A DNA stretch of 64,000 nt from a virus. The notes under the pieces were generated by a model that worked only from the letters and a program-made list of their open reading frames with translations, was not told the origin of the DNA and did no database searches. Location: IMG/VR virus record IMGVR_UViG_3300020165_000008, positions 1 to 64,000 of that record; one strand, given 5' to 3'. Below, piece by piece: positions 45,893-64,000 of this stretch (the first letter of the stretch is position 1; the number at the start of each line of letters is the position of its first letter). A program made the position numbers and the translations under genes.

Positions 45893-46196
45893 CTATTTGC
45901 TCCTCTAGGGCATCTGTAAGCTCTTCTTCCTCTAACCTGCTAAACAGGGTTGTAAAGTCTCCAACTCTCTCTGAGACGGCCTTTGAGTGCTCTAACAAGG
46001 CACGTAAGGTTTCATCTCCATAAAAGGATTCAAGCTGGTATACTTGTTCGACGTGGCGATGATAAATGTTGAGGTCTGTAATCACTTCCTCGACTTCTAA
46101 TGAAAGGTCTGAAAGGTCGGTTACAAGGCGGCGGCCATACCAAGTTAGAATTACATTAAGTAATACCGAAACTGTTATAATACCATAAATCATCAA
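45807..46196 (-). CDS. Membrane-anchored coiled-coil protein overlapping the sigma gene
   Basis: 129 aa. Residues 2-20 (MIYGIITVSVLLNVILTWY) form an N-terminal membrane anchor. A helical, heptad-rich part follows (LSLEVEEVITDLNIYHRHVE..., FYGDETLRALLEHSKAV), then a highly acidic linker and the end HVFYAGTRGRNP. Such proteins often lie next to the late sigma gene in marine T4-like phages; function is unknown. The last 28 codons are read in a different frame over the first part of the sigma gene, an unusually long overlap. It starts 4 nt inside the FmdB-type gene. Confidence 0.72.
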   Translation of the reverse strand: MMIYGIITVSVLLNVILTWYGRRLVTDLSDLSLEVEEVITDLNIYHRHVEQVYQLESFYGDETLRALLEHSKAVSERVGDFTTLFSRLEEEELTDALEEQIDDSEEEKEEQVSKEKKHVFYAGTRGRNP

Positions 46197-46459
46197 TCCA
46201 ACATCCTATTTGCTAAATTATTTTTTTCGTCTTGAAGAATTTTTCTGTTTTCTTCAATGTAATCTTTTGTTAGTTCGCCGGTCTTTTTTGAAGTTTCTTC
46301 GGCGGTTCTTCGGATACTAACAGTAGATAATTGTTTTGTTATTTCGCCTTTATCGGCGCAATCATACACTTCTGAGCAAGTGGTTGGGGTTTCGTCGGAC
46401 CCAACCATTGCCTTGAAGGATGAACCACATTTTTTACATTCGTAAGCGTAAATGGGCAT
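46193..46459 (-). CDS. FmdB-type zinc ribbon protein
   Basis: 88 aa. Begins MPIYAYECKKCGSSFKAMVG, the hallmark of FmdB/CxxC-CxxC regulatory-type zinc ribbons. The first Cys pair is C8/C11; the second pair is widened (C28 and C34, in TTCSEVYDCAD). After the ribbon comes a Ser/Thr-rich linker and a basic helix (KDYIEENRKILQDEKNNLAN). Small phage copies are common; the function is unknown but may be protein- or nucleic-acid-binding. It begins at a TAATG junction with the nucleotidyltransferase gene and precedes the membrane coiled-coil gene. Confidence 0.82.
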   Translation of the reverse strand: MPIYAYECKKCGSSFKAMVGSDETPTTCSEVYDCADKGEITKQLSTVSIRRTAEETSKKTGELTKDYIEENRKILQDEKNNLANRMLD

Positions 46460-46875
46460 TATTCTTCTTTGTTATAGTAATCAGAAGATGAACGGATCTT
46501 CATTCCAAGTCCATCAACTATTTCTGCTCCAATCTCTTTACAAGTTGTAGCTTCTGGAATCTCATCTACAAAGCGATCTCCGCCTTTTGCGAAGATGTCG
46601 GGGCTAACGGCTTGTAAAGACCTACATACCGTAGGGTCCTCATCGATAGAAAGGAACACCTCGTCGACACACTTGAGAGAGGAGACGATCTTAAGTCTAT
46701 CTCCCTCGGTCATAAACGGGGTGCCCTTCTTGAGTACTGCCTGATTATCATTATTAACAATAACAATCAACTTATCTCCAAGCTTGGCGGCCATCTCTAA
46801 ATACTCAATGTGACCAACGTGAATCGGATCAAAATAACCGCTGGCCACGACTGTTCTATTCTCTTTCAAGATCAC
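46459..46875 (-). CDS. Cytidylyltransferase-fold nucleotidyltransferase
   Basis: 138 aa. Shows ASGYFDPIHVGHIEYL with the catalytic HxGH (H19, H22), then LIVIVNNDNQAVLKKGTPFM, EGDRLKIVSSLKCVDEVFLS and SPDIFAKGGDR. Members transfer CMP or AMP to sugar or polyol phosphates (TagD, HldE C-terminal domain). This single-domain version is frequent in phages; the substrate is unknown. It differs clearly from the second nucleotidyltransferase at 48683-49093, so the island has two. The likely start is GTG at 46875 with GAGG upstream, overlapping the 67-aa gene by 20 nt. It marks the boundary between the glycan island and the regulatory genes. Confidence 0.88.
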   Translation of the reverse strand: MILKENRTVVASGYFDPIHVGHIEYLEMAAKLGDKLIVIVNNDNQAVLKKGTPFMTEGDRLKIVSSLKCVDEVFLSIDEDPTVCRSLQAVSPDIFAKGGDRFVDEIPEATTCKEIGAEIVDGLGMKIRSSSDYYNKEE

Positions 46876-47059
46876 CTTCTACTGCCTCTTCTAGCTCTGA
46901 AAGGTCTCCGGATACGACAGGCGGATTGGTTACCACAAGCCCATCATCGGACATCTCAAAAACCATATCGTTAAGAAGCGGCATAATATCTGCTTGCTCC
47001 CAAAGACATTTTTGTAGAACCATTAACAGGGCTCCGGCTGCTTGATTTGATAGTTTCAT
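46856..47059 (-). CDS. Small conserved phage protein
   Basis: 67 aa with a textbook ribosome binding site (AAAGGAGAAAACTA then ATG at 47059). Begins MKLSNQAAGALLMVLQKCLW, a helix, followed by EQADIMPLLNDMVFEM and a strand-turn DDGLVVTNPPVV, with an acidic tail. The pattern is known to me from small unassigned proteins of marine T4-like phages. Function unknown. It lies between the dehydratase gene and the nucleotidyltransferase gene, with a 15-nt gap upstream. Confidence 0.72.
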   Translation of the reverse strand: MKLSNQAAGALLMVLQKCLWEQADIMPLLNDMVFEMSDDGLVVTNPPVVSGDLSELEEAVEGDLERE

Positions 47060-47074
47060 TAGTTTTCTCCTTTA

Positions 47075-48025
47075 TTACCATCTAAAGTTAATATTAAAAA
47101 AATTAACTATATTTTTTATTTCTTCATCGAACTGTTTTTGCGGACTCCACCCCAGCTGCCTTAGTTTGTTATCATTTAAGGAATATCTAACATCTTGCCC
47201 TTCTCTGGTGTGTTCTAGATCAACATAAGATTCTATAGGCAATTCCTTGCCAAAGTAAGCGTTTATTATTTTTTGAACTGTTGTTTTGTTTTTTTGTTCT
47301 AAATTACCTGAAATGTTATAAATTTCATTTACTTTGCCAGAATTAATAATTGCTAACACGGCTTCGGCAGTATCTTCAGCGTGAAGCCAATTTCTAACCG
47401 GCTCCCCTTTATTGTGAAGTTTTATTCTTTTTCCTAATTGCAAAGCTTTAACTGAAATTGGTATCAATTTTTCCGGGTATTGATTTATCCCATAGTTGTT
47501 TGTTGGTCTTACAATAACATAATTAATGTTATAAGTTCTCGCCCATGCATTTATCAACATATCTGCAGCTGCTTTAGATGCCGAGTAAGGGTTACTAGGG
47601 TTCAATGTATCTGTCTCAAAATGTTCTCCTTCAACGATGTCTCCATACACTTCATCGGTACTAAAATGTAGTAATATCGGCTGGTTGAAAACGTTTTTTT
47701 GTTTATTGCGAATTAAGTCTAAAAGATTTTTAACTCCATTAATATTTGAATGAAGAAAATCATTACTGTCGACAATACTATTTCCTACATGTGATTCAGC
47801 AGCTAGATTGATAACATAATCACAATCTGGTAGGTGTTTCAAAGAAGCTATATCCTCTTTCAAAAAAGAGAAATTTTTGTGCTTTTTAAACTCATAAATT
47901 AAATTTTGGTTTGCGGCATATGAGCATTTATCAATGCCCAACACTTTCCACCCTTCACTCAGGCACTTTCTAGTGACGTGCGATCCTATTAGGCCCAGGC
48001 ATCCGGTTACAATAACTATCTTCAT
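47075..48025 (-). CDS. NAD-dependent sugar dehydratase, RmlB-like
   Basis: 316 aa, extended SDR. The cofactor loop is GCLGLIG (8-14). The active site shows STDEVYG (122-128) and Tyr147/Lys151 in YSASK; NNYGINQYPEKLIP is typical of nucleotide-sugar 4,6-dehydratases of the RmlB group. The product would be a 4-keto-6-deoxy-sugar nucleotide. It is slightly shorter than RmlB (about 350 aa). No RmlA, RmlC or RmlD is seen in the window, though the neighbouring cupin and SDRs could take up the intermediate. It has a good ribosome binding site (AAAGGTG). Confidence 0.88.
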   Translation of the reverse strand: MKIVIVTGCLGLIGSHVTRKCLSEGWKVLGIDKCSYAANQNLIYEFKKHKNFSFLKEDIASLKHLPDCDYVINLAAESHVGNSIVDSNDFLHSNINGVKNLLDLIRNKQKNVFNQPILLHFSTDEVYGDIVEGEHFETDTLNPSNPYSASKAAADMLINAWARTYNINYVIVRPTNNYGINQYPEKLIPISVKALQLGKRIKLHNKGEPVRNWLHAEDTAEAVLAIINSGKVNEIYNISGNLEQKNKTTVQKIINAYFGKELPIESYVDLEHTREGQDVRYSLNDNKLRQLGWSPQKQFDEEIKNIVNFFNINFRW

Positions 48026-48388
48026 TTAATCACCTTTAATTATTCTGTAACTGTCATCATCAAAATGTTGAGTTGAGAACTCAAACAACTCAGTATCTTC
48101 TAATGCTATCATCTGGTGTCTTAGACCTCGATGCACATGAAAATTATCTCCTCTCTCTAGCACAACTTCATCTGCCTTCTCAATGTCATCCTGATCAGAA
48201 TATCTAACCAGGACCTTTCCGGACTGTATATAGAAGACTTCATCTTTCAGTTCGTGGTAATGCCAAGAGCATTTTTTTCCTTTCACAAAAAATAAAAGCT
48301 TTCCGCAATATTCTTCTTTGTTAACAATCCACTTTTCATAACCCCAACCTTTAGGGACAAAGTGCATTTCTAAAAAATTCTTCATCAT
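48026..48388 (-). CDS. Cupin-domain protein, sugar isomerase-like
   Basis: 120 aa. A single cupin barrel with CSWHYHELKDEVFYIQSGKV (first metal-binding motif, H/H/E pattern) and GDNFHVHRGLRHQMIALED (second motif His). GWGYEKWIVNKEEYCGKLL at the start resembles the mannose-6-phosphate isomerase type II/GMP cupin domain. It probably isomerises or binds a sugar phosphate or nucleotide sugar. ATG at 48388 has AAAGGA upstream. It overlaps the HAD phosphatase gene by 38 nt and precedes the dehydratase. Confidence 0.8.
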   Translation of the reverse strand: MMKNFLEMHFVPKGWGYEKWIVNKEEYCGKLLFFVKGKKCSWHYHELKDEVFYIQSGKVLVRYSDQDDIEKADEVVLERGDNFHVHRGLRHQMIALEDTELFEFSTQHFDDDSYRIIKGD

Positions 48389-48686
48389 TTATTCCTTTAT
48401 CATCAACATACACATCTCCGGATGGCTTACCTAGAAATAAGCTATGGTATTTAACACCCCAATTCTCTAACTGCTCTTGTGTAAGGGTGAAAAACAGTTT
48501 ATGGGCCTCGATTGCATTATTACAAGTTCGTCCCATTCCTCGTGCTGTTTGAAAAATTATAGTATTACCTTCTTCAAATAGTTTATTAATTTCATCTATT
48601 CTCTCTTGTAGTGGCTCTGAATTCTTATACACGCCATCAACGTTTGTACAAATGGTACCATCTATATCGAATACATATGTCTTCAT
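48351..48686 (-). CDS. Small HAD-superfamily phosphatase
   Basis: 111 aa. The nucleophile motif is FDIDGTIC (D7, D9); QTARGM is the second motif, and a Lys in LGKPSGD and DVYVDDKG (acidic pair) complete the HAD set. No cap domain fits in this length. The size and motifs resemble HAD phosphatases in capsule and polysaccharide gene clusters, shorter than GmhB (about 190 aa). It may dephosphorylate a sugar bisphosphate, for example a heptose-1,7-bisphosphate, but this is inference. ATGA overlap with the nucleotidyltransferase gene. Confidence 0.82.
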   Translation of the reverse strand: MKTYVFDIDGTICTNVDGVYKNSEPLQERIDEINKLFEEGNTIIFQTARGMGRTCNNAIEAHKLFFTLTQEQLENWGVKYHSLFLGKPSGDVYVDDKGINDEEFFRNALCP

Positions 48687-49093
48687 AGTCCGTTTAAGAT
48701 CTTAGTTGTTGAATACTTACTTATTCTATCATAAAAAATTATTTTGTCAACTAAATTTTTACCTATAATTTTTTTATTTTTATAATCAGAACCAATAACA
48801 ATTATCTTGGCATCGCAAAGTACTATTTGGTCTTCAAGCTCGGCGTCTGTACCAAAAACTTTTACTTCATCAATAAACCTAATTGCTTTCAACATCGCCA
48901 CCCTGTCCTGCAGGTTGTTATATGGTCGCTCAGGGCCTTTGGACCCTCTAACCCTATCATCGGTATCAACTCCGACAATGAGCCGCTCACCGAACGATTG
49001 AGCGAACTTGAAAAGTTCTAAATGACCTCGATGCAGGACATCAAAACATCCATTTGTCCAAACCGTCTTAATAGTTTCCATACCATGGCTCAT
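48683..49093 (-). CDS. Sugar-phosphate nucleotidyltransferase, HldE C-terminal-domain-like
   Basis: 136 aa from ATG 49093; an ATG at 49081 (METIKTVW...) is equally possible, with no clear ribosome binding site for either. VWTNGCFDVLHRGHLELFKF contains HRGH (21-24). VDTDDRVRGSKGPERPYNNL and DRVAMLKAIRFIDEVKVFGT closely follow the adenylyltransferase half of HldE (RfaE), which makes ADP-D-glycero-beta-D-manno-heptose. A separate PfkB kinase gene at 50307-51053 resembles the other half, so HldE looks split. Overlaps the epimerase gene at 49068. Confidence 0.87.
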   Translation of the reverse strand: MSHGMETIKTVWTNGCFDVLHRGHLELFKFAQSFGERLIVGVDTDDRVRGSKGPERPYNNLQDRVAMLKAIRFIDEVKVFGTDAELEDQIVLCDAKIIVIGSDYKNKKIIGKNLVDKIIFYDRISKYSTTKILNGL

Positions 49094-50030
49094 CTATAAG
49101 TTTGTACATTTTAATCAACTGTCGGATACCATCGTCTAGATCATATTTGCATTCAAAACCCAGATCATAAAGCTTTTGGCTGCTAACAATATAGTCTCTC
49201 TTGTCCGGATCTTGAGTAAATTCAGCTTTTATGATTTCAACCGGTATATGCTGTTGAATTTTTTTAGCTAATTGTAATTTGTTCATATTAATAGAGTCAT
49301 TTCCTATGTTAAATGTCTCATTTTTACATTTGTCCCAATTGTTGATAACAAACTGAAAAACACGACATATGTCCCAAATATGCACATAATTTCTCATAAA
49401 TTCACACTCATAAAGTACTAAAACCTTGTCTTTGAGCGCCTTTAGAACAAAATTATTAACTAGCAAATCCGTTCTAGCTCTGCTTGATGGTCCAAAAACA
49501 GTTGCCAACCTAAGTGTACAGCTGCCATCAGTATCTTGATAGACTTTCTCTGCTTCAACTTTTGTTTTTCCATAGAGAGAAACCGGGTTTAGAGGGGACT
49601 CTTCAGTACATACAGATCCGCTCTTGCTAACACCATATCCAGAGTTGGTGCACGGGTAAATCAAGATCTGCTCTGGTCTTTTAACTTCTGCTATCCATTT
49701 ATTAATCTCGAAGTTAATCTCAACGGCGTCACGCTCCCTCTTGTCACAAAGAGGAAATCCGACCAGGGCTGCAAGAGGAATGATGACGTTCGCCTCTGCT
49801 AGTAGATGTCGGAAGGGTTCTTTTTTGCGGACGTCCAGTTTTTTAAAATAAAAATTGGGGTCGCCAACATACCTCAATAAAGATGTTGGCTCATATTCTA
49901 GTGTGTCAACAACTTTAACTGTATGGCCTTCCTTGAGAAAGAAGCCAACCAGCTCGCTTCCTATGTATCCAGCACCCCCGGTTATAAGAATATTTAATTT
50001 TTTTGTAAAATCTGTTGTTATTGCTTTCAT
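49068..50030 (-). CDS. NAD-dependent nucleotide-sugar epimerase/dehydratase
   Basis: 320 aa from ATG 50030 (GGAG 10 nt upstream, ATGA overlap with the Mpo1-like gene); a GTG at 50054 would add 8 residues. Extended SDR: GGAGYIG (18-24), catalytic Tyr153/Lys157 in YGKTK, and substrate-loop residues in RLATVFGPSSRARTDLLVNN and MRNYVHIWDI. The closest known roles are 4- or 3,5-epimerases or dehydratases acting on nucleotide sugars (UDP-glucose 4-epimerase-like). It lies between the split HldE-like genes, so an ADP-heptose epimerase (HldD-like) role is possible, but the sequence alone does not settle it. Confidence 0.87.
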   Translation of the reverse strand: MKAITTDFTKKLNILITGGAGYIGSELVGFFLKEGHTVKVVDTLEYEPTSLLRYVGDPNFYFKKLDVRKKEPFRHLLAEANVIIPLAALVGFPLCDKRERDAVEINFEINKWIAEVKRPEQILIYPCTNSGYGVSKSGSVCTEESPLNPVSLYGKTKVEAEKVYQDTDGSCTLRLATVFGPSSRARTDLLVNNFVLKALKDKVLVLYECEFMRNYVHIWDICRVFQFVINNWDKCKNETFNIGNDSINMNKLQLAKKIQQHIPVEIIKAEFTQDPDKRDYIVSSQKLYDLGFECKYDLDDGIRQLIKMYKLIDEPWYGNY

Positions 50031-50317
50031 CTTTCTATTTCTCCAAAGATCCACTGTTTAAACATAACTGCATCAGACATTTTCGCAAACAGGGGGTTTC
50101 TAAAGGCCGCAGGAGTGTTTTGCTCAAAAAAGTAATGTCCGGACCAAGCAAAAGGATACACAACCAGTGGTGCTAAGAATAGTAATAAAAACTTAAATGT
50201 TATAATACAGTAAATTATGTAACTCATTGTTACAAGTTGGCCCAGCACGTGCAGTCTTCGACACCATAAGTTTTGATGTAAAGATAAATATTTATTATAG
50301 TACTCCTTAAAATTCAT
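50027..50317 (-). CDS. Mpo1-like (DUF962) membrane protein
   Basis: 96 aa. HVLGQLV, VVYPFAWSGHYFFEQNTPAAFRNPL and DAVMFKQW reproduce the conserved DUF962/Mpo1 pattern (His near the start, then GHxxxExNxPA). Yeast Mpo1 is an iron-dependent dioxygenase that shortens 2-hydroxy fatty acids. Two hydrophobic segments (about 26-55) indicate a membrane protein. Finding it inside a sugar island suggests modification of a lipid carrier, lipid A or fatty acyl group, which is inference. It overlaps the PfkB kinase gene by 11 nt and is co-transcribed. Confidence 0.82.
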   Translation of the reverse strand: MNFKEYYNKYLSLHQNLWCRRLHVLGQLVTMSYIIYCIITFKFLLLFLAPLVVYPFAWSGHYFFEQNTPAAFRNPLFAKMSDAVMFKQWIFGEIER

Positions 50318-51053
50318 TTATTGTATTAACTCCTTTTGTCTGAACAACCCTTGTTGCACACTCGTTTGCAAACTGTATGGCACAAGCAATATCTTTATTT
50401 TTTATAAAATCAACGCCCAAGGCGGCCAAGAAGGTATCCCCAGCGCCACAGACGTCTTTAATTTCTACCTTCCCAACTGGGAAGTGTGTCTTGCCCAACC
50501 GGCAACCACCAGAACCAAGAGTCACGATTACTTTTTCCTGTGCCCATTTTGTTTTTTCAATGAATCCCTTCGAAGCTTCGTATTCGTGCTTGTTGATCTT
50601 GATGTATTTGCACCCCTTGCAATAATCTCCTATAATTTTTTTTGTATCAATAAAAACCAAATTATGATTATCACAAATAAATCTAATATCTTCTTCAAGC
50701 AGAAAACCTTTATTATAATCTGACACTATAATCAACTCAAAATCTGATAAGAAATCACGATCTAAATTTTGGATTCTTTCAATTTTTGCTTCTCCGGAGT
50801 CTACCCGAAGAAACATATGGTTTGTCTCTTCGTGCACGAATCTTTTTTTTTCAATTAAAATTTTATTTGTTTTTATTATTGCCGGAACCCCTAGGGAAGT
50901 TACGTTTTGATAAACGTTCCCAGCCATGCCTAAGTTTTGTTTTTCATGAGATGGTATAAAAACAGGCACAGGCGCATCTGGACAAAGGCGATGAGAACTC
51001 CCATATACATGTACATCTCTGCAGCTATCACCAACAACTAGAATCCTACTCAT
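50307..51053 (-). CDS. PfkB-family sugar kinase, HldE kinase-domain-like
   Basis: 248 aa, short for the family (about 310 aa). VVGDSCRDVHVYG opens it; QNLGMAGNV (40-46) corresponds to the substrate-binding motif; VSDYNKGFL is typical of the HldE kinase domain; DVCGAGDTFLAALG (201-214) holds the anion hole and catalytic Asp206. In HldE this domain phosphorylates D-glycero-beta-D-manno-heptose 7-phosphate at C1. Together with the nucleotidyltransferase at 48683-49093 it would rebuild a split HldE. The missing length lies in the lid region around residues 60-100. Confidence 0.87.
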   Translation of the reverse strand: MSRILVVGDSCRDVHVYGSSHRLCPDAPVPVFIPSHEKQNLGMAGNVYQNVTSLGVPAIIKTNKILIEKKRFVHEETNHMFLRVDSGEAKIERIQNLDRDFLSDFELIIVSDYNKGFLLEEDIRFICDNHNLVFIDTKKIIGDYCKGCKYIKINKHEYEASKGFIEKTKWAQEKVIVTLGSGGCRLGKTHFPVGKVEIKDVCGAGDTFLAALGVDFIKNKDIACAIQFANECATRVVQTKGVNTINEF

Positions 51054-51468
51054 TTTTCATTCTCCGGGGCCATGATATATCCCAGTCCTTGAAGTCGGCT
51101 GCTAAACAATCAATCTTGTAATCTTTTCGGCCGCCGGCGACTTCTTGAATTTTGTTCTTTGCCACATTTCTTATCCCATTGAGACCATGAGTTAACTCTA
51201 AATTGTTTCCATCTTTGATACCTTTTCTATAGTTTGCTTCATTGTGCCAGATGTGCAGATTCATTTGAGACAAAACAACTATAGCACGAATGGTCTCGGC
51301 TGTGATGGGCTCGCTTGCTTCTAACAATAGTTGAATATCATGCACGATATCTGATATCTCACCAGCATATTCTTTCTTGTGCTCGGTTATAAAAACTTCT
51401 TTTAATTGTGCAATTGATAATCTATCTATTAGTTCAGATAAAGTTGGTAAATATAATCTATTATTCAT
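51046..51468 (-). CDS. Hypothetical protein in the sugar island
   Basis: 140 aa, helical: LSELIDRLSIAQLKEVFITE, then HKKEYAGEISDIVHDIQLLL and the end GGRKDYKIDCLAADFKDWDISW. The segment LELTHGLNGIRNVAKNKI is the best conserved-looking part, and I associate similar proteins with polysaccharide clusters, but no family is established. It stands where an isomerase (GmhA) would complete a heptose pathway, yet it has no SIS-domain sequence pattern. Overlaps the kinase gene by 8 nt and the SDR gene by 8 nt. Confidence 0.65.
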   Translation of the reverse strand: MNNRLYLPTLSELIDRLSIAQLKEVFITEHKKEYAGEISDIVHDIQLLLEASEPITAETIRAIVVLSQMNLHIWHNEANYRKGIKDGNNLELTHGLNGIRNVAKNKIQEVAGGRKDYKIDCLAADFKDWDISWPRRMKNE

Positions 51469-52378
51469 TTTGTTTTTTTGTTTCCTCTATAAAGTATTTT
51501 ACACTATTTTTTATACCGGTGTCAAGAGAGAATTTAAATAAAAAATCTTTGTTTAAAGCAGCTAGTGTTTTTTGTATATTTATTTTTTTCTCTTTTACTC
51601 CTACGTATTTTGTTAAATCATGGCCAATTAAAGTTTGATCAAAGTTAAAATTCTCAGCTACCATGCTAGCAAAATCATTAATTGAATTATCTTGGCCTGT
51701 GCCTATGTTATAAATCTCATTTTCTTTATCAAGTAGGTTTAACATGATATCGACGGCGTCATCAACATAAACCAATTCCCTTCTTTGCTCGCCATCACCC
51801 CAGACAACAAACTCGTTATTGTAGTTTTTAGCATTATAACAATTACGAATAAAATCAAAAATAAAATGATTATCATCTAGTTCAAAATTAGGCCCATACA
51901 GCGTTGAGGGGACAAAATACAGCCACTTCAATCCATATTGTTTCTCTATTGCATGCAGGCCTGCTAGGAGCATCCTCTTCGTCATGGCATAGGTGTAGAG
52001 AGACTTTTCTGGCTTTCCTAAGAGGTAATTTTCCTCAACCATCTCTAAGTCCGGACTGTACGAACAACTAGTCCCCATACAGATCATCTTTGCATGCGGC
52101 TGATTTGTTTTCCAATACTCAAGGATATTAGTGTTGATGGCTTGATTCGCTAGCCATTGATCTCCCGGATGTTTTAAACAATAATCACCGGCTTTCGTTA
52201 CTGCGGCTAAGTGGAAGATAAGATCAAACCGTATGTCATTGTACCGGTATAGGTTCTCAATATTTTTAAGGTTTGCTATCTTTGAGTTAGAGATTGAGAT
52301 ATCCCATCCTAAGCGCTCGACCTTTTTGACTAAGTGTTTTCCGAGGAAACCAGTGGCGCCCGTTATTAAAACTTTCAC
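51461..52378 (-). CDS. NAD-dependent epimerase/reductase, WcaG-like
   Basis: 305 aa, SDR fold. GATGFLG (7-13) binds NAD(P). Tyr130/Lys134 in YTYAMTK are catalytic; LYFVPSTLYGPNFELDDNHF and GDGEQRRELVYVDDAV resemble GDP-L-fucose synthase and related 3,5-epimerase/4-reductases. The lack of a recognisable GDP-mannose dehydratase in the window means the exact substrate is open. ATGA overlap with the methyltransferase gene; it would act on keto-sugar nucleotides made by the dehydratases nearby. Confidence 0.87.
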   Translation of the reverse strand: MKVLITGATGFLGKHLVKKVERLGWDISISNSKIANLKNIENLYRYNDIRFDLIFHLAAVTKAGDYCLKHPGDQWLANQAINTNILEYWKTNQPHAKMICMGTSCSYSPDLEMVEENYLLGKPEKSLYTYAMTKRMLLAGLHAIEKQYGLKWLYFVPSTLYGPNFELDDNHFIFDFIRNCYNAKNYNNEFVVWGDGEQRRELVYVDDAVDIMLNLLDKENEIYNIGTGQDNSINDFASMVAENFNFDQTLIGHDLTKYVGVKEKKINIQKTLAALNKDFLFKFSLDTGIKNSVKYFIEETKKQNE

Positions 52379-53583
52379 TCTACAACTCTCAATGTGGGAA
52401 ATGGAATAATAAATTTTACACCACGATCGATCAAGTCTTTGTTTTTCTCTATTATCTCTTTTTCAAAATTGTGAGACAAAAGAAGATAGTAATCTGGGTG
52501 TTCGACAGTCTTTTCATCGATAATAGGGATGTGGGAACCCGGTAAGTAATGGCCAATTTTAAGCTCGTTTATCTCGACAGACATGTCGATTAGAGAGTTA
52601 TCAATGCCAAAGTAATTAAGTAGGGTGTTTCCTTTTGCCGGTGCACCATAAGCGTAAATGGTTTTGCCGCTAGCTTTGAGCTTTTGTAGGAAATCTTTTA
52701 AATCACCTTTCTTGCTCTCAACCTTTTGCGCAAACTCTTTAAAGCTGTCTGTTGTGTATTTTTTATCATTTTCATGCAGCTCAAGATACCGATCGGTCTT
52801 TACATCATAGCTCCCGCCCCTATGTGTAACCTTTGCAATAATCGAACCACTGTGGATTTCAGAGTAGTAAGCATCGAAGATCTCTAAATCATATCGTTGC
52901 AAGAGGCTCTTAAGGCTAGCAAGAGTGTAGTAGCAGAGGTGTTCGTGGTAGATTGTGTCAAAATTCATCTTCTCAATCATTGTGCCGGCATACATAAACT
53001 GTACGATCAATACACCATCGTCTCTAAGTGATACCTTGATACCGTCAATAACGCTGTGCAGTTCCTCCAGGTGAAAGAACACGCCGGATGCATTGTAAAG
53101 CTTTACAGAGTTGTTTCCGAGATGTTGGTCTACACACTCCCTGTTGAAAAATTCATTAATAGTCCGGACGCCACTCATCTTAGAGTAGTCTGATACCCTA
53201 CTAGAAGACTCAACGTTTAAAACATTTTCAATGCCGCACTCCTTGTATTGTAATAGTTGCGAGCCGTCATTCCCACCAATATCAACCACAAGATCGTCCG
53301 ACTTCATATCAAATTGTTCGACGTTCTCACTTGCAACCTCATAAAAATGATTTCGCAGTGTCGATGTCACACCAGACAGGTAGCAATGATCTGCAAACAT
53401 TTTTTCTTTCGGTACCGTATGGTCTAGCTGCAGCAAATTACATCCCTCGCAACACTTAAGCCTGAGTGGGAACGTCTCTTCTCTCCCAACTTCCTCTTCT
53501 TTTAGAAAATCATTACACCAAGGGTGCTCCCCGAGATCCAAAATTAATTCTAGCTCTTTTGAGCCACAGCCTCTACATTTCAT
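52375..53583 (-). CDS. Sugar C-methyltransferase with zinc-binding N-terminus
   Basis: 402 aa. Zinc finger at the N-terminus: C3, C6 (CRGC) and C45, C48 (CEGC). The SAM-binding motif is VVDIGGNDGS (99-108). LREDGVLIVQFMYAGTMIEK, YHEHLCYYTLASLKSLLQRY and the C-terminal Rossmann-like part (IYAYGAPAKGNTLLNYFG, HIPIIDE) match the three-domain TylC3/NovU family of C-3 or C-5 sugar methyltransferases. Length (about 400 aa) is normal. The phage may build a branched-chain deoxysugar. It overlaps both neighbours by 4 nt. Confidence 0.9.
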   Translation of the reverse strand: MKCRGCGSKELELILDLGEHPWCNDFLKEEEVGREETFPLRLKCCEGCNLLQLDHTVPKEKMFADHCYLSGVTSTLRNHFYEVASENVEQFDMKSDDLVVDIGGNDGSQLLQYKECGIENVLNVESSSRVSDYSKMSGVRTINEFFNRECVDQHLGNNSVKLYNASGVFFHLEELHSVIDGIKVSLRDDGVLIVQFMYAGTMIEKMNFDTIYHEHLCYYTLASLKSLLQRYDLEIFDAYYSEIHSGSIIAKVTHRGGSYDVKTDRYLELHENDKKYTTDSFKEFAQKVESKKGDLKDFLQKLKASGKTIYAYGAPAKGNTLLNYFGIDNSLIDMSVEINELKIGHYLPGSHIPIIDEKTVEHPDYYLLLSHNFEKEIIEKNKDLIDRGVKFIIPFPTLRVVE

Positions 53584-56928: not shown

Positions 56929-56941
56929 TTTTTAATTCAGT

Positions 56942-57625
56942 TTATATAAAATTGATCGATTGTTTCCCACAGCTGAATAGCAAATCTATTATGCTCACCT
57001 TGTGCACAAAGTCACCATGCAGCTGCGGATATTCTGGATATTTGCTGTAATCCATCCATGTTAACTTGATCCCGGCCAATTCGAACTTATCTCGATCGAT
57101 ATAATCTTTAGCGGCAGGACCGGAGACATACTCAGATGCGCCGGCCTGAGTGCATATGTCGATTAGCCTATCAGTTTTGTCTTCAGCTGACAAATTATAC
57201 TCTGCAGAAGAAACTATATTTGTATTAATATCCAAGTAGTCGCATATACCGACTATAAAATGCCGATTAACTTCAGAGATGGTGTTATAATTAGATGTCG
57301 TATATAAATTCTCGATGTATGGAAGGACTTTCTTATAGTCTGGGGCTTTAGAATATGCTTCTTTGATTGACTTAAGATGACTGCTTCTCCAATCTCCATC
57401 ATTAATAATTATTGCATCTTTTATCTTTTGATGATACCGCCCCTTGACGCCTACCGGCACAGTTAGCCACTTCAGGCCATGACATGTCTTAATCTTGTTC
57501 CTGTTTCGCCAATCACGTTTAGTGTATTGTACGTCGTCGTACAGCACAAAAGTGTCGACTGACTGGATCATGTCAAAATAACCTTTCCAGGATATATAAT
57601 TTGATTGATTGATAGCTATCTTCAT
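56942..57625 (-). CDS. WbqC-like protein
   Basis: 227 aa. Conserved WbqC family pattern: IAINQSNYISWKGYFDMIQS, FVLYDDVQYTKRDWRNRN, LTVPVG, then TDRLIDICTQAGASEYVSGP and a C-terminal SIIDLLFSCG. WbqC is required for O-antigen-type polysaccharide gene clusters and is found near aminotransferases; the reaction is not established. Here it neighbours a DegT-type aminotransferase and a radical SAM gene. Length is as in bacteria. Confidence 0.9.
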   Translation of the reverse strand: MKIAINQSNYISWKGYFDMIQSVDTFVLYDDVQYTKRDWRNRNKIKTCHGLKWLTVPVGVKGRYHQKIKDAIIINDGDWRSSHLKSIKEAYSKAPDYKKVLPYIENLYTTSNYNTISEVNRHFIVGICDYLDINTNIVSSAEYNLSAEDKTDRLIDICTQAGASEYVSGPAAKDYIDRDKFELAGIKLTWMDYSKYPEYPQLHGDFVHKVSIIDLLFSCGKQSINFI

Positions 57626-57626
57626 A

Positions 57627-58238: not shown

Positions 58239-58239
58239 G

Positions 58240-58626
58240 TCATCTCTCTAATATATAGTATTTTCTCTTGTATCCACAACTTTCAAACAATCTCAGGCTA
58301 GCCTCGTTGGCAATTTTTACTTTGGCTGCAGCTGTTGGGTGATGTTTGGCCATTTCGCTGACCATGTAGCTTCCAATCTTCATGCCTTGAAACTCCGGAC
58401 TCACCGCCACTCTTATATCGCCTTCGATAACACCAATAAAGCCAACCGGTGTCTCATCAGACAAACATATAAAATAACAATCAGAATGTTTCTTCATAAA
58501 ACGTTCATGAGTTGTTTGCTCGATATGTTCTTGCTCGATAAAGGACTCCTTGGTGCCAGGAGCATTCCTTAAATTTCTTATGAACTCCCAGAATGTGTAG
58601 TCGTTCTTTACCAATTTTAGCTCCAT
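58240..58626 (-). CDS. GNAT-family acetyltransferase
   Basis: 128 aa. Acetyl-CoA loop QGMKIGSYM (80-88) follows the strand IRVAVSPEF; the C-terminal ASLRLFESCGYKRK is the usual motif B helix and strand. Located directly before (upstream of) the aminotransferase, it likely N-acetylates an amino sugar nucleotide, as in bacterial 4-acetamido-deoxysugar pathways (inference from neighbours). The end abuts the aminotransferase start with 1 nt between. Confidence 0.85.
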   Translation of the reverse strand: MELKLVKNDYTFWEFIRNLRNAPGTKESFIEQEHIEQTTHERFMKKHSDCYFICLSDETPVGFIGVIEGDIRVAVSPEFQGMKIGSYMVSEMAKHHPTAAAKVKIANEASLRLFESCGYKRKYYILER

Positions 58627-59411
58627 ATATCCCTCTGGCTACTATAGTGATTACTGTGCCCCAACCAATAGGAGGTTAGATAGCCTCTTGTATGGACCCA
58701 GCCCTCAAGATTTAAAAGCGGGTTTAAGCAACTTCCAATATCTAGAAAAGTATTCTGATTGTCTTCTTTAAAGCACTCATAGATAATAAAATTTGATAAC
58801 GAGGCAGCTGAACATAATACTATGGCGTCTTTAATGCTGTTTTTAGATATGTATGTCTTTACCTTCTCAATAGTATCATAACTATCAATCATGCAATTTG
58901 AGCCAACTCTAAACTCTTTCGAAATCTCAAAAGGTAATCGATTAGTGTCTGCTAGCTCGTTAACTACATAAATGACTTCTCTTCTTTTGAACAAAGGAAT
59001 TATTTCTTCTACAAATCTTTTATAATTTGCATTTATTAACAAGTTTGCAAAAGTTAAATTATCTCCAGGGGCGCCGTGTTCTTTCACCATCCAGGCGAAG
59101 TTATCCTTGCCGACATGGGAGTCTGTTGGTGTGCAGATTCCCTTGAAGTACCCTTCTTGATTGTGCTTGAAACATTTAAGTAAAAGTGCACGATATGATT
59201 GGTGCTTTTCTGGAATGAACTCTTTCTGCTCCTCTTTTGTATAGATGTTGCTTCCTATAATATCACCTGTTTGATAAAATTTATCTGCTAAAACTAACTT
59301 TTTATTCTGCATGATAAACAATTCACCATCAGAAAATCTCGTAAACGCAAAATTTTCTTTATTTTTTAATTTATTTAAAATTGTATTAAAAGCTTTAGTA
59401 TAATCTTTCAT
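58617..59411 (-). CDS. GT-D-like glycosyltransferase candidate
   Basis: 264 aa. NFAFTRFSDGELFIMQNKKL carries the DGE element after a strand, as in GT-D (DUF1792) glycosyltransferases. EVIYVVNELAD and NTFLDIGSCLNPLLN mark the later nucleotide-sugar-binding strands. No classic GT-A or GT-B motifs. Identification by pattern; transferase activity unproven. Overlaps the 2-epimerase gene by 17 nt. Confidence 0.7.
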   Translation of the reverse strand: MKDYTKAFNTILNKLKNKENFAFTRFSDGELFIMQNKKLVLADKFYQTGDIIGSNIYTKEEQKEFIPEKHQSYRALLLKCFKHNQEGYFKGICTPTDSHVGKDNFAWMVKEHGAPGDNLTFANLLINANYKRFVEEIIPLFKRREVIYVVNELADTNRLPFEISKEFRVGSNCMIDSYDTIEKVKTYISKNSIKDAIVLCSAASLSNFIIYECFKEDNQNTFLDIGSCLNPLLNLEGWVHTRGYLTSYWLGHSNHYSSQRDIWS

Positions 59412-60399
59412 TTTTGTTCAATTTATTCAATATCATGACGACCCGTTTAGATGTTTGGCCGTCACCGAAAGGGCATTGTGTCGTTGACGGTACCGCTCTC
59501 AATTGCTTCTCAAAGGCTGTATGTAGGGTTTGTATCTGAACTAGCGTTGAATACTCACCTAGAGATTCAGGACGCTCTGTTGTGTCTCTGCATACTAAAC
59601 AATGTTTTCCTAGGAAAGATGCCTCTTCTTGAATTCCGCCGGAGTCCGTTATAATCATTTTACACTGAGCTATTTCTGTTATAAACTGTTCGTATTGTAG
59701 TGGCTCTATCACCCTAACTTTTTTAAAGACGTCTCTATGTTGTGCGACATTCGGATTGGGGTGCAGTGGAATGAAAAAATCCAATTCATGATGGTGGTTT
59801 GCTATCTTTTCTATTTCTTTAAACCACAATCTAATGTTATCATGGTTTTCTCTTCTATGCAAGGTAATTATAATTTTATTTGTTTCCGATACCTTAAGAT
59901 TAATCAAATTATCTAGTACACTATTGCCAACAACAAAAATATTATCTTTAAAATTCTCAGTTATCAGATTTTGTCTTGTCAACTCTGTTGGACAAAGGTG
60001 AATATCTGCCATAGCCGAAATAGAGCGACGGTTAAATTCTTCTGGGTATGGATGACTCTTGTTGTAGGTTCTCAATCCTGCTTCTAGATGAATTATCTTC
60101 TTATTCCGATGAAAGGCAGCTAGCGCAACAGCAAAGGATGACGTCGTGTCTCCTTGTACCAGTACAGATGTAATCCGATGAAAGATCTGATTATTGTTTA
60201 GCACTGAAGCGACTATAGAGTCTAGTCTGTTATCGCCAGGTTTGATATTGAGTGCTAGACAGTTCTGAACGTTTTTTATTAAATCTTCATGCTGACCTGT
60301 AAAAAGCACCCTGTATGGAACTTTACTATAATCAAAAGCGTCAAGTATCGGCTTGATCTTTATCCATTCTGGTCTAGTCCCAAAAGATACTAAAATCAT
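59395..60399 (-). CDS. wecB: UDP-N-acetylglucosamine 2-epimerase
   Basis: 334 aa, GT-B-like fold. VSFGTRPEWIKIKPIL, QGDTTSSFAVALAAF, HLEAGLRT (104-111), PYPEEFNR (117-124), TLHRRENH, TDSGGIQEEA and RDTTERPES are full WecB/MnaA signatures. It makes UDP-ManNAc from UDP-GlcNAc, used in enterobacterial common antigen, teichoic acid linkers and capsules. No UDP-ManNAc dehydrogenase (WecC) was seen. Slightly shorter than bacterial enzymes (about 375 aa) but motif-complete. It begins at the stop of the fused transferase gene. Confidence 0.93.
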   Translation of the reverse strand: MILVSFGTRPEWIKIKPILDAFDYSKVPYRVLFTGQHEDLIKNVQNCLALNIKPGDNRLDSIVASVLNNNQIFHRITSVLVQGDTTSSFAVALAAFHRNKKIIHLEAGLRTYNKSHPYPEEFNRRSISAMADIHLCPTELTRQNLITENFKDNIFVVGNSVLDNLINLKVSETNKIIITLHRRENHDNIRLWFKEIEKIANHHHELDFFIPLHPNPNVAQHRDVFKKVRVIEPLQYEQFITEIAQCKMIITDSGGIQEEASFLGKHCLVCRDTTERPESLGEYSTLVQIQTLHTAFEKQLRAVPSTTQCPFGDGQTSKRVVMILNKLNKNERLY

Positions 60400-62015
60400 T
60401 AAACAACCTCGTTAACTGTTGCCCACCCATTTTTGAGCGCATTTTGCACACACAGATCCCTTTCATGAAAAAACTGTTGATGTGTTACTTCGTTGTTGTT
60501 TGACGTTGCTTTTGAATCGATTCCAAGCTCATTTCCTAGAATTGATCCATGCAGACTCTGATCGGTGGGAGGATGGGCCGGACAAAATGTTTTAATGCCG
60601 CCATGGATTTTTGCCATTGAAGAAAACTGTATATCTTCACCATTCTCCCAAGTGAAGGGCTTTTCTTTCCAAAGGAAACTTAACCACTCTCTCTTGAAGA
60701 ACCATGCATGGCCAACAAGATCAACTTCTGTTGGTTCGCTATTTCTTGTTGGCCAGCCACACCGATCGTGATTGGCGTACTCTGCGCTTTTAAGTATGAT
60801 GCCAGCAGATCCCAATATTCCTTCTTCCCTCTCCATCGTCTCAAAGCAGTTTTTATGCCAATTACCACCTGGGATCGTGTCATCGTCATAGACTGCGATG
60901 AACTCAGTATCTGCCAGAAGGGCGGCGGCAAAACGACCATAAAACTTCCAATTGTGGTTATTCAAAAACACTTTGTCGACATCTAAAGAGTCGAAATCAA
61001 AACCATGATTATCTTCATGATCATTGACCCAAAGCCAAACCTGGTTCGGCGGGCAGCTTTGCTCCCTTATTGCCTTGACTTGTAGTGCCAGATTAGCCGG
61101 GCGCCTGTAGCAATTCAAGATAACTGTTAGATCAGCTTCTTTGTTTTTCTTTTCTGAAGAAATGCTATCAACAATAGTTTGTACAATTTCATCTCTAGAG
61201 TTAGAAACAAAATCAATCAGATCTTCACCTTTCAGGCCTGCAAACCAAGATTCGTGAGTGCACCCGTTTAGTTTGTTTGTTACAACTGAACAATTGAGCA
61301 TTCTTGCTTCTAGTACCACACGACAAAAACTTTCGGGCGTTTGAGGAAAGAAGATAAACCTTTCTGCTCTCGAAAGATTGGCTATATAGTCACTATAATC
61401 TGTTTTCTTTAAACAAGTAAATTCAATACTTTTTTCTTTACAGTACAATTCCGCCTGTTTATAGCCCTTTATGGGGTTTGGGTCTTTTAATACTAAGTTT
61501 GTATTTTTTTGATTAGTTAAGTTTTTTCTGATTATTTTTAGCTGTTCTTCATCCCACAAGGAGCAAGAAAGATTAATTGTATTTTGTAAGCTTAAATTTT
61601 TATTAATTATGTCTTCATGGAACTTAGACTGACAAAACAAATTTTTTGCATTTTGATAAAATAATTTGTTGATAATAAGATGAGCAGGTACTTTAAAATC
61701 ATTATTATAAATTCCTGGATTTCTATTTGCGTCGTATTTATGATCGTGTTCAACTATAGAATACGTGTTTTTATGCGCCTGAATGTGCTTTATCAGGTTT
61801 TTATCTAGAGCAGTAAAGTTTGAAAACAAGAAATAAAAATCATGTTTTAAGTAAAAATTATAATATGCTCTTGTAAAATCCTTACTGTTGAACTTTACAA
61901 CTTTAAGAGCTCTTTTCTCTAATTCCCTGATTAAAACAGCATCATAAATCTCAGCACCACCAAAAACCTGGTCGGCAAAGAAGTCAGAAACAAAGACTAT
62001 ACCTTTTTTATGCAT
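60399..62015 (-). CDS. Two-domain glycosyltransferase (GT4-like plus GT2-like)
   Basis: 538 aa. Residues about 1-275 are a GT-B/GT4-like half (VFVSDFFADQVFGGAEIYDA, LFCQSKFHEDII, RFIFFPQTPESFCRVVLEAR). Residues about 290-538 are a GT-A/GT2 half (LTVILNCYRRPANLALQVKA, VYDDDTIPGG with DDD near 376-378, and WENGEDIQFSS as the catalytic ED). Such fusions add two sugars in succession or serve as bifunctional chain-building enzymes. Overlaps the next GT4 gene by 8 nt. Confidence 0.85.
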   Translation of the reverse strand: MHKKGIVFVSDFFADQVFGGAEIYDAVLIRELEKRALKVVKFNSKDFTRAYYNFYLKHDFYFLFSNFTALDKNLIKHIQAHKNTYSIVEHDHKYDANRNPGIYNNDFKVPAHLIINKLFYQNAKNLFCQSKFHEDIINKNLSLQNTINLSCSLWDEEQLKIIRKNLTNQKNTNLVLKDPNPIKGYKQAELYCKEKSIEFTCLKKTDYSDYIANLSRAERFIFFPQTPESFCRVVLEARMLNCSVVTNKLNGCTHESWFAGLKGEDLIDFVSNSRDEIVQTIVDSISSEKKNKEADLTVILNCYRRPANLALQVKAIREQSCPPNQVWLWVNDHEDNHGFDFDSLDVDKVFLNNHNWKFYGRFAAALLADTEFIAVYDDDTIPGGNWHKNCFETMEREEGILGSAGIILKSAEYANHDRCGWPTRNSEPTEVDLVGHAWFFKREWLSFLWKEKPFTWENGEDIQFSSMAKIHGGIKTFCPAHPPTDQSLHGSILGNELGIDSKATSNNNEVTHQQFFHERDLCVQNALKNGWATVNEVV

Positions 62016-63291
62016 ATTCCAGTATTTCTTCGTCGTTCAAGGTAGGCACTCCAAGAAAGCTTTCTTTGTAAAATATTTCTTCAAAGAATCTCTCAAAAGT
62101 TTTTTCTTCATCGGGCCAGTTTTCTTCAAGCCATTCTGCTAGCTGGTTTGCTTTCTTTTGCATTGCGCCGTGATTCTCCATCATCGAGCGCATCTTCATT
62201 TTAAATGAGCCCTCCTTTGGAAAACACCACATAGAATCAGGAATAATAACTTTATCCCATACAACTTCTTTCTGGACATGGCGAAGTTCATAATCTACCT
62301 TAAGTGGAATGAACTTGTTTTTTCCCTTTACAGGCATCGTCAAGAAGTCGGTGTGCCCTGACCAAGCCGGTGCGATGATGGGAAGGCCTGCTTGTGCTGC
62401 CTCGAATAGCGGAAGCCCATAACCTTCACCGTGAGTTGTTGTGATAAAGGCGTGAATGTCCTTGTGCCGATAAAGAAGCGCCATCTCCTCTTCTGTCATA
62501 TAGCCATGAAGAAGATATACCTTACATTTCTTTTCTTTGTAATCTTCGTGATCTAGAAGAACCTTGATTCTCTCAATACAATGAACCCGATCAATCTCGC
62601 AGTTCTTTGCTAGGTTGGTCTTTAGAACTAGGCCAACATTTTCACGATCAAAGTTTTCTTCGATAAACCACTTGACTAGGTTCTCTAGATTCTTTCGTGG
62701 CCCCCATTGGGCAACTGAAAGAAAGTTAAAATCTGTTTCAAAAGAGATTTGGTTTTCAATTGACTCTGGGCTGTCTTTAAAGTCCCAATCTTTTCTTGGA
62801 TAAGGAATAACTTCAATAGGTGTTTCGTTTTTGTAGCCCTTGACGATTTCTCCGGTTTGTTGGTTTTGTGCGTCATAAGAAGTTTCGTCAAAAGCATAAC
62901 GAGCAAACTGAGACGGAACAATGATTTTATCCATCAAATTTGCCTTCTCAATCCATTCTCCCGCAATCTTTGTGGTTTCAATACCTGCGGTGACGCCAAT
63001 GTTAATCGGGGCCATGCGCTCCCATTCAAGAGGTATTGTGACTTGTATTGAGACGTCTGGCTGAGGCATTTGCTTTTGTTGCATTAGCATAGCTGTCTTT
63101 TGGATGAGTGAGTCAAGCCATGCTCGCTCCTCATCATCTTCAAAGATCCAGTTTGTCGCACCCCAGCTGGTTGAAAGAAGGTAAAGATCTAGTTCTTCCT
63201 CTCTTGAGCGAAGCGAACGAAGAACCAAGCGTGTGTGTTCTCCATAACCTGATTGCGATAGCGCTGGGCCTCTAACTAATACCTTTTTCAT
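62008..63291 (-). CDS. GT4-family glycosyltransferase
   Basis: 427 aa. MKKVLVRGPALSQSGYGEHT is a glycine-rich N-terminal acceptor domain start; IVPSQFARYAF is the interdomain element; FNFLSVAQWGPRKNLENLVK begins the nucleotide-sugar domain; THGEGYGLPLFEAAQAGLPI (EX7E motif) binds the sugar nucleotide. Likely builds a surface glycan. It is encoded next to another GT4 gene. Confidence 0.9.
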   Translation of the reverse strand: MKKVLVRGPALSQSGYGEHTRLVLRSLRSREEELDLYLLSTSWGATNWIFEDDEERAWLDSLIQKTAMLMQQKQMPQPDVSIQVTIPLEWERMAPINIGVTAGIETTKIAGEWIEKANLMDKIIVPSQFARYAFDETSYDAQNQQTGEIVKGYKNETPIEVIPYPRKDWDFKDSPESIENQISFETDFNFLSVAQWGPRKNLENLVKWFIEENFDRENVGLVLKTNLAKNCEIDRVHCIERIKVLLDHEDYKEKKCKVYLLHGYMTEEEMALLYRHKDIHAFITTTHGEGYGLPLFEAAQAGLPIIAPAWSGHTDFLTMPVKGKNKFIPLKVDYELRHVQKEVVWDKVIIPDSMWCFPKEGSFKMKMRSMMENHGAMQKKANQLAEWLEENWPDEEKTFERFFEEIFYKESFLGVPTLNDEEILEYA

Positions 63292-64000
63292 ACTACCTCC
63301 TCAAATGTCCAAGTTGAATGATTTTTTCTGCTTTCCCAAGATCCATAACGATTATGAATGTCTTCTAGGAGTGTTGGCCACTTATCACAAAAGTCTTTAA
63401 AGTTATAGTTCTTTTGTACGTGTTCTCGACCAGCTTCACCAAGTGCTTTTCGCTCTTCTTCGGGCATTTCCATAATCTTCGTGAGAGCCTCTATAAAGTC
63501 TTCCTTGTTGAGGCGGTCCTCGTAGATGTAAGGAATGTCTTGAGAGCCTATGATGGCCTTTGAGGGCGGTTCTAGGCCTATTCCAAACCAGTTCTCACCA
63601 TCAGTTACTTGTTCTTGGAGCCCACCGGTCATATTTACAATGATTGGGGTACCACAAGAAAGAGATTCAAGGGTTGCTAGGCCAAAACCTTCAGCATCTG
63701 AAATGTTGAGGGTACAATCGACCATGTTATAAATGTTCGCAAGAATCTGCGGTGGATACTTTTGCTTTGAAAAGAATACTTGGCCATCTTCGTGCATGTC
63801 AAGTTTCTTTGCAATTGCTTCTAGATCTTGACCGTTTGGATCTTTTGGTTCTGTATGCATAATAAGAGTTGCCTTGTCCTTTCCAACTCTTTCCAAAAAC
63901 TCTTTGAACCAAAATAGTAGGGTACCTGACTGCTTTCGTCGTGCGTTTCGGTTGTTCCAAAAGAATACAAACTTTTCGTGGGACTCTCCTAGTTGTTCTT
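63288..64000 (-). CDS. GT4-family glycosyltransferase, 5' end outside the window
   Basis: The open frame continues to the right edge: before the internal TTG at 63896 it reads ...FVFFWNNRNARRKQSGTLL..., so the true start lies beyond 64000 and at least 236 codons are present. FWNNRNARRKQ resembles the start of the nucleotide-sugar-binding domain, and ISDAEGFGLATLESLSCGTP is the EX7E motif. GREHVQKNYNFKDFCDKW is a typical GT4 C-terminal helix. The four-base overlap with the next transferase gene indicates one operon. Confidence 0.88.
   Translation of the reverse strand, partial: EQLGESHEKFVFFWNNRNARRKQSGTLLFWFKEFLERVGKDKATLIMHTEPKDPNGQDLEAIAKKLDMHEDGQVFFSKQKYPPQILANIYNMVDCTLNISDAEGFGLATLESLSCGTPIIVNMTGGLQEQVTDGENWFGIGLEPPSKAIIGSQDIPYIYEDRLNKEDFIEALTKIMEMPEEERKALGEAGREHVQKNYNFKDFCDKWPTLLEDIHNRYGSWESRKNHSTWTFEEVV

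Follow-up and report, generated by a model that had tools for sequence, protein, structure and literature searches.

Viruses that specify the glycosylation of their own virions are known among chloroviruses, mimivirus and mycobacteriophages. In bacteria, ADP-heptose is made through GmhA, HldE, GmhB and HldD. Among T4-type phages, the cyanophage P-SSM2 has 'LPS' (lipopolysaccharide) genes, in which a nucleotidyltransferase (NTase), a PfkB kinase, a small HAD phosphatase (mini-HAD) and a cupin are encoded consecutively (genes 309-312, T4-GC304-307). Cyanophage records name the HAD protein 'phosphoheptose isomerase' and the cupin 'cysteine dioxygenase', and in the accessible part of the literature we found no product assignment for this cassette. 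Here we describe a glycan-building island that contains the same four genes. It lies in a window of 64,000 nucleotides, the first 64 kb of the IMG/VR virus record IMGVR_UViG_3300020165_000008 (154,885 bases in full). What is added is that two cyanophage gene families, the cupin and the HAD, are tentatively reassigned, and that a locus with a shared border and variable content emerges in phages like Flavobacterium phage immuto.

The island comprises 24 minus-strand genes, from GT1a (GT, glycosyltransferase) to NTase2, between position 46459 and record position 64586, past the end of the window (Table 1). A sequence-only reading of the window had described about 20 co-directional glycan genes at 46459-64000, wired into an operon by overlaps. 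Both the orientation and the wiring were confirmed: 17 of the 23 gene junctions overlap and the widest gap is 15 nt. The downstream end held as well. The upstream end did not, as GT1a, the first gene, has a longest frame that exceeds the window and runs to record position 64586. All 24 frames are uninterrupted, and the genes are read as intact.

The four-gene cassette and a proposed heptose pathway

In the window, the NTase, HAD and cupin genes are adjacent and PfkB lies two genes further upstream. The kinship with the P-SSM2 'LPS' genes, pointed out in the sequence-only reading, is borne out by this common cassette. Compared with cyanophage S-SM2, identity is 70% for the cupin, 52% for the HAD, 51% for PfkB and 47% for the NTase, whereas the core phage genes are remote (terminase, ~32%). 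Most other island genes find no match or distant ones in P-SSM2 and S-SM2. The cupin occurs in 35 of 50,697 phage records (23 Synechococcus, 6 Prochlorococcus, 5 'Marine virus' and 1 'Cyanophage') and in 271 matched stretches of viral contigs. We compared the best 80 of these stretches (the window's twin, L018, dropped and L011 added; near-duplicates kept), each reaching at most 10 kb from the cupin. Matches to the HAD were present in 75 of these 80 cupin loci, to PfkB in 67 and to the NTase in 67; all four genes co-occur in 65.

The top NCBIfam matches of the kinase and the NTase are HldE domain I and HldE domain II, respectively, both below the curated cut-offs, which upholds the split HldE-like pair that had been suggested. 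We also used the E. coli K-12 pathway proteins as tblastn queries against 82 viral loci (E 1e-3). The HldE kinase and the HldE NTase each matched 69 of them. Comparatively, GmhA and GmhB matched none of the 82. SIS_2, the domain of GmhA, was found in 0 of 48 records (G000 and 47 of the 80 others, many of them fragments), while 9 of 14 control genomes were positive. The isomerase and phosphatase steps are therefore left without their usual enzymes, and the cupin and the HAD are the spare proteins of the cassette. The likeness to the bacterial pathway consists of the HldE-like kinase and nucleotidyltransferase; the differences are that the HldE functions are split and that GmhA and GmhB were not found. 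From these sequence comparisons we infer that the cupin replaces GmhA and the mini-HAD replaces GmhB in a nucleoside diphosphate (NDP)-heptose pathway. The cassette probably makes an activated seven-carbon sugar. HldD at 33% identity or more is present in 21 of the 80 cupin loci. P-SSM2 and S-SM2 have an HldD-like gene next to or near the cassette (37% and 36%). In a literature search that covered few subscription journals and included the available parts of PMC9602691, PMC10918830, PMC12838424 and PMC8378251, no description of a cupin in heptose synthesis or of this island was found.

The cupin as a predicted isomerase

A cupin profile built from 32 relatives (114 positions) was searched against the PDB sequences. 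It spans 87-97 of the 114 positions in D-lyxose isomerases (7nzo, 1e-6; 2y0o, 2e-6) and also matches the mannose-6-phosphate isomerase 7zvm (2e-4). The predicted model of the cupin has a pLDDT (predicted local distance difference test) of 96.2. In the Thermofilum D-lyxose isomerase (TsLI), the sugar and metal contacts are K62, H75, H77, K86, E88, H143, E156 and D163, and mutating the equivalents of K86, E156 and D163 is reported to abolish activity (PMC8378251, in the part available). Mapped by eye onto the window cupin, these contacts become K30, H43, H45, K48, E50, H91, E103 and D110, i.e. the full residue set of a cupin-type aldose-ketose isomerase (H, H, E, H plus K, K, E, D). The position of K48 is H or T in quercetinase alignments. 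All 80 viral loci keep the seven residues from K30 to E103 without exception. A scan of 84,980 genomes with two peptide patterns, which misses distant relatives, gave 45 cellular loci, and each of the seven residues is present in 44-45 of them; the sole miss is a gap. Position 110 varies: 79 viral loci have D there and one has E (n = 80), and the cellular loci have D 31 times, E 11 times and N three times (n = 45). The isomerase reading was chosen because of these residues and of the gene fusions below, not because of the fold. The cupin is predicted to be a sedoheptulose-7-phosphate isomerase of the D-lyxose/mannose-6-phosphate isomerase type.

Cellular relatives of the cupin

In two metagenome-assembled genomes (MAGs), the cupin is fused to heptose-type domains. 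The woesearchaeal contig L140 has one 475-aa frame that comprises GmhB-type HAD, cupin and HldE-NTase-type domains. The archaeal contig L139 has one 436-aa frame with HldE-kinase-type and cupin domains, followed by a separate GmhB that exceeds the TIGR00213 cut-off. Both have a gene of Glyco_transf_9, the heptosyltransferase family, upstream, with a NUDIX gene between. In a third contig, L134, the cupin gene overlaps that of a kinase exceeding the TIGR02198 heptose-kinase cut-off (377.6 vs 345). SIS_2 had no match in the MAGs of L139 and L140 and only a sub-threshold one (a 583-aa frame) in that of L134, for MAGs whose completeness is not known. L139, L140 and L134 share one project prefix, and L139 and L140 also share one sample label. 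Therefore, the three cases are not independent. The L139 cupin exceeds the cut-offs of both PF01050 and PF07385, the L140 cupin neither, and neither family was reported for the window cupin.

The closest cellular relatives of the cupin include phage-like contigs in MAGs (L098-L101, L104). Two of these, L101 and L104, binned in MAGs of Thaumarchaeota and Proteobacteria, have glycan islands of the phage type and are probably phage contamination of the bins. The cupin of the 176-kb woesearchaeal contig L106 is 70% identical and those of the Halobacteriovorax contigs L102 and L103 are 68% identical; the stretches compared contained no match to the rest of the island. A recent bacterial donor was considered, and with such relatives a cellular source of the cupin is conceivable.

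Related phages, shared border and variable content

By terminase, the top-scoring isolates are Flavobacterium phage immuto (43.6% over 99%) and Microcystis phage Mel-JY01 (44.2% over 93%). Immuto (vB_FspM_immuto_2-6A, NC_055915), known here, like P-SSM2 and S-SM2, from its record alone, has a glycan island of 13 genes at 49172-59988. It shares the upstream border of the window island: a PD-(D/E)XK nuclease (28%) and two GTs (31% and 30%). Beyond this border, the immuto island continues with aminotransferases (one of them a compact DegT, 42%), an epimerase and further enzymes. Its sigma homologue (32%) lies ~18 kb beyond the island, whereas the sigma-like gene of the window is part of the downstream flank. 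In immuto 28000-140000 (of 160,410 bases) no match was found at E 1e-4 to the cupin, HAD, PfkB, NTase, WecB, WbqC and radical SAM queries. The record that contains the window shows the same plan, i.e. nuclease, GT, GT, variable glycan genes and a sigma homologue downstream. We take the island locus to be a hypervariable locus of immuto-like T4-type phages, with a shared border and variable content. By its annotation, immuto also carries a 7-deazaguanine DNA-modification set (FolE, QueD, QueE, QueF and DpdA; L146, NC_055915 28000-50700).

The class of the island is already known, and the island is not unique among viruses. Two uncultured contigs, L159 and L022, match 19 and 18 of the 27 queried window proteins (flanks included), so the suggestion that the combination may be new finds no support. 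Both carry the whole cassette and the sigma flank, as in the window. L159 has a permuted gene order and L022 is without GNAT; neither has a WbqC or radical SAM match within the stretches compared. Among the 80 cupin loci, matches to the flanks number 32 for sigma and 30 for the 67-aa border protein, mostly in the order of the window. Variable genes situated well inside the 10-kb reach are matched more sparsely: the C-methyltransferase in 4 loci, GTx in 1, GTy in 4, WbqC in 2 and radical SAM in 7, one of these at 69% and the others at 26% or less. WecB, GT-D, GT1a and GT4 lie beyond the 10-kb reach, and their absence from the loci is not judgeable.

We compared the identities of the cupin with those of the flanking sigma by a Mantel-type test. 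After identical entries among the 32 full-length sigma sequences (window included) were collapsed, 26 remained. No correlation was seen for the cupin (rho -0.00, P = 0.51, n = 26). The corresponding values were 0.54 for Mpo1, 0.42 for DUF140, 0.33 for u129 (n = 13) and 0.22 for the NTase (P = 0.005). That the cupin is untied to sigma suggests shuffling between phages, with the reservation that the proteins are short and that Mpo1, DUF140 and the NTase do track sigma.

Proposed function and alternative explanations

The island had been likened to a bacterial O-antigen or capsule locus. This likeness fails on function. The families PF01943, PF04932, PF02397, PF00953 and PF01061, which cover the flippase, the polymerase/ligase, two classes of initiating transferase and the ATP-binding cassette (ABC) exporter, were each found in 0 of the 48 records, of which many are fragments and the window island is complete; 9-14 of 14 control genomes were positive in these searches. 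By a crude Kyte-Doolittle scan, each protein of the island has one membrane segment or none. As far as these families go, the island therefore does not itself make and export a lipid-linked polysaccharide. The simplest reading is that the acceptor is cytoplasmic, perhaps a virion protein. In the window, a 3009-aa protein with a lectin-like Laminin_G_3 domain (24031-33060) is a candidate surface protein and a possible glycan acceptor.

The reactions, the sugars, the order of transfer and the acceptor given below are all predictions. The cupin would isomerise sedoheptulose-7-phosphate to heptose-7-phosphate, the PfkB kinase would convert it to the 1,7-bisphosphate, the mini-HAD would strip the 7-phosphate and the nucleotidyltransferase would activate the 1-phosphate, which would yield NDP-heptose without GmhA or GmhB. 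The RmlB-like dehydratase, the short-chain dehydrogenases/reductases (SDRs), the C-methyltransferase, DegT, GNAT and WbqC might produce a branched, aminated and acylated deoxy-sugar, and WecB would supply UDP-ManNAc. The conserved GT pair and several variable transferases would then join the sugars on an acceptor in the cytoplasm, for which a surface protein of the virion is the likeliest candidate. Particles would thereby acquire a glycan coat that the phage specifies and can change. Our best explanation, to which we give about an even chance, is a glycan factory that works in the cytoplasm and is encoded at a hypervariable immuto-like locus, with a heptose cassette and a virion-type acceptor.

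Several observations weigh against this explanation. The scores are well under the curated cut-offs (kinase 127/345, NTase 103.5/181.5 and HAD 46/162 bits). The window is without a clear HldD, as its SDRs are 23% identical to the E. coli protein. The top E-values of the cupin profile belong to quercetin dioxygenases, over 58 positions (about half its length); in the fold comparison, the scores of CapF, PAC13 and KdgF reach those of the isomerases, and Pfam places the window cupin in general Cupin models only. Even the fused domains are just below their cut-offs (L140 GmhB 138.8/149.6, L140 NTase 168.4/181.5 and L139 kinase 342/345). For most cellular relatives, the surrounding ~10 kb is free of heptose genes: the HldE kinase is present in 12 of 45 loci and the NTase in 10 of 45, and several of these HldE-positive loci are phage-like contigs. 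The cupin of L117 adjoins a gene of the GDP-mannose-dehydratase type, and SIS_2 exceeds its cut-off in two of nine cupin-bearing MAGs (those of L121 and L129). The cupin family may be wider than heptose. It could act on fructose-6-phosphate or a pentulose phosphate, with an NDP-hexose or NDP-pentose as the product. The low scores and the cellular neighbourhoods would fit this, as would the substrates of the nearest solved isomerases, i.e. lyxose, mannose or mannose-6-phosphate. However, the archaeal cases in which the cupin is fused to, or overlaps, a kinase, phosphatase or NTase of the heptose type close to Glyco_transf_9, together with the HldD in 21 of the 80 loci, argue for heptose, and we consider another sugar unlikely.

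The virion protein, as the acceptor, is likewise a candidate. The sugars might instead be added to the LPS or surface polysaccharide of the host, via its carrier lipids, flippase and ligase, and block the adsorption of superinfecting phages. Cyanophage authors suggest envelope remodelling for such sugar genes (PMC9602691, in the part available). In addition, WecB, WbqC, the methyltransferase and DegT are of kinds typically found in bacterial loci for surface polysaccharides. Nevertheless, the host would have to supply all steps beyond the cytoplasm, since the initiating transferase, flippase, polymerase/ligase and exporter families are unmatched in the 48 records and the island proteins have no more than one predicted membrane segment each; we hold envelope remodelling to be possible, though doubtful. 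A third destination would be the bases of the phage DNA, as in T4 or Shewanella phage Thanatos. The record has a thymidylate-synthase-like frame of the S-SM2 type (136898-137608, 32% identity), a type of gene related to base-modifying enzymes. Certain T4-like phages produce activated sugars destined for cytosine (PMC12838424, in the part available). In our judgement, made without a search for base hydroxymethylases, the sugar enzymes and transferases of the island far exceed the known needs of base glycosylation, which makes this destination very improbable.

Other genes of the island and its surroundings

Table 1. Genes of the island and its downstream flank, listed from the upstream end (window positions)
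Feature	Position	Strand	Remarks
Glycosyltransferase GT1a	63288..64000 (to record 64586)	-	PF00534; immuto GT 31%
Glycosyltransferase GT4	62008..63291	-	PF00534; immuto gp180 30%
538-aa protein, C-terminal GT2-like domain	60399..62015	-	20.8 bits, cut-off 23.3
WecB-type UDP-GlcNAc 2-epimerase	59395..60399	-	exceeds TIGR00236 cut-off
GT-D-fold-like protein	58617..59411	-	below cut-off
GNAT acetyltransferase	58240..58626	-	family match
Compact DegT-type sugar aminotransferase, 203 aa	57627..58238	-	immuto homologue 42%
WbqC-like protein	56942..57625	-	PF08889, 273 bits
Radical SAM/SPASM enzyme	55948..56928	-	69% relative in L011
218-aa protein, possible GT-A	55295..55951	-	DSD motif by eye; no family
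250-aa protein, possible GT (guess)	54542..55294	-	no family
Glycosyltransferase	53580..54542	-	PF13524, 25.1 bits, cut-off 25
Sugar C-methyltransferase	52375..53583	-	PF08421 + PF08484
SDR	51461..52378	-	top NCBIfam match GDP-fucose synthase, below cut-off
'DUF140', 140-aa protein	51046..51468	-	79-85% identity to ten phage relatives
PfkB kinase, HldE-domain-I-like	50307..51053	-	T4-GC305
Mpo1-like small protein, probably membrane-bound	50027..50317	-	family match; hydropathy scan
SDR	49068..50054	-	top NCBIfam match dTDP-glucose 4,6-dehydratase, far below cut-off
HldE-domain-II-like nucleotidyltransferase	48683..49093	-	T4-GC304
Mini-HAD phosphatase, EcbF/BcbF type	48351..48686	-	T4-GC306
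Cupin, predicted sedoheptulose-7-phosphate isomerase	48026..48388	-	T4-GC307
RmlB-like NDP-sugar 4,6-dehydratase	47075..48025	-	299 bits, TIGR01181 cut-off 365
67-aa protein, island downstream border	46856..47059	-	
Second HldE-domain-II-like nucleotidyltransferase (NTase2)	46459..46875	-	family match
Zinc-ribbon protein (flank)	46193..46459	-	
Probable late sigma factor, downstream flank	45188..45892	-	weak PHROG 234 match 5e-4; immuto homologue 32%

Pfam and NCBIfam upheld the sugar-enzyme families named in the sequence-only reading: the RmlB-like SDR and two further SDRs, two CTP_transf nucleotidyltransferases, PfkB, the Mpo1-like protein, the C-methyltransferase, radical SAM/SPASM, DegT, GNAT and WecB. 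The WbqC family was also found; it had been missing from that list, as had the cupin and the EcbF/BcbF-type HAD. At least six transferase-like proteins had been counted. Three GTs (63288, 62008 and 53580) exceed the Pfam cut-offs, two candidates (the GT2 part of 60399, and 58617) stay below them, and two (54542 and 55295) have no family in Pfam, PHROGs or NCBIfam and no convincing match in a PDB search. The 538-aa GT2-like protein had no tblastn match in the 50,697 phage records. Inspection of the translations by eye showed each catalytic motif that was sought, namely that of WecB, the radical-SAM CxxxCxxC, the DegT lysine, HxGH and GAGD. The SDR gene at 49068 has a GTG start, with an in-frame ATG 24 nt downstream. 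WbqC had no PDB sequence match at E 0.01.

DUF140 had no PDB sequence match at E 1, and its predicted model (mean pLDDT 58.6) was not used for a fold search. Its ten phage relatives carry sigma-like genes that are only ~50% identical, and at least 477 stretches in viral contigs match it. PfkB is directly downstream of DUF140 in 26 of 80 loci (twin included). In the islands of L156, L157, L164, L165, L171 and L173, a second, remoter cupin (46-51% identity) adjoins DUF140 or the NTase. For these neighbourhoods, the tallies were made over 79 loci (twin dropped), the neighbour counts over 80 and the gene orders over the first 25 of the 80. Near the island of L004, a 239-aa HAD protein (8001-8720, record 68001-68720) matches PF03332, the eukaryotic-type phosphomannomutase (3.4e-26); at 1e-15, nothing in NCBIfam matches it.

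Another IMG/VR contig, 168,882 bases long, showed 100% identity to the window virus wherever the two were compared, and probably represents that same virus. A scan for the late-promoter motif TATAAATW found no minus-strand site within the island, and a DNA search with 54000-61900 matched nothing in the phage records. The search of the record for gp23 (PF07068) is uninformative, as it gave no match there and none in the controls. A GroEL-like gene (record 118108-119694, L006) is 41% identical to the GroEL of phage immuto.

Implications

For a mycobacteriophage, capsid glycosylation was inferred from its GT genes (PMC11256854, in the part available). Extended beyond the window, our explanation would mean that several T4-type lineages carry and exchange an NDP-heptose pathway that is started by a cupin and free of GmhA and GmhB, and coat their own virions with a heptose glycan whose surface code is re-shuffled. 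We offer this extension tentatively, and would sooner doubt it than rely on it. If the cupin is a sedoheptulose-7-phosphate isomerase, the four proteins of the cassette gain a concrete and assayable product. Two misleading names in public phage records, the 'phosphoheptose isomerase' HAD and the 'cysteine dioxygenase' cupin, would be corrected. Heptose synthesis would gain a second starting route, not homologous to the first, and whether the virion or the host envelope is glycosylated would become a direct question for mass spectrometry.

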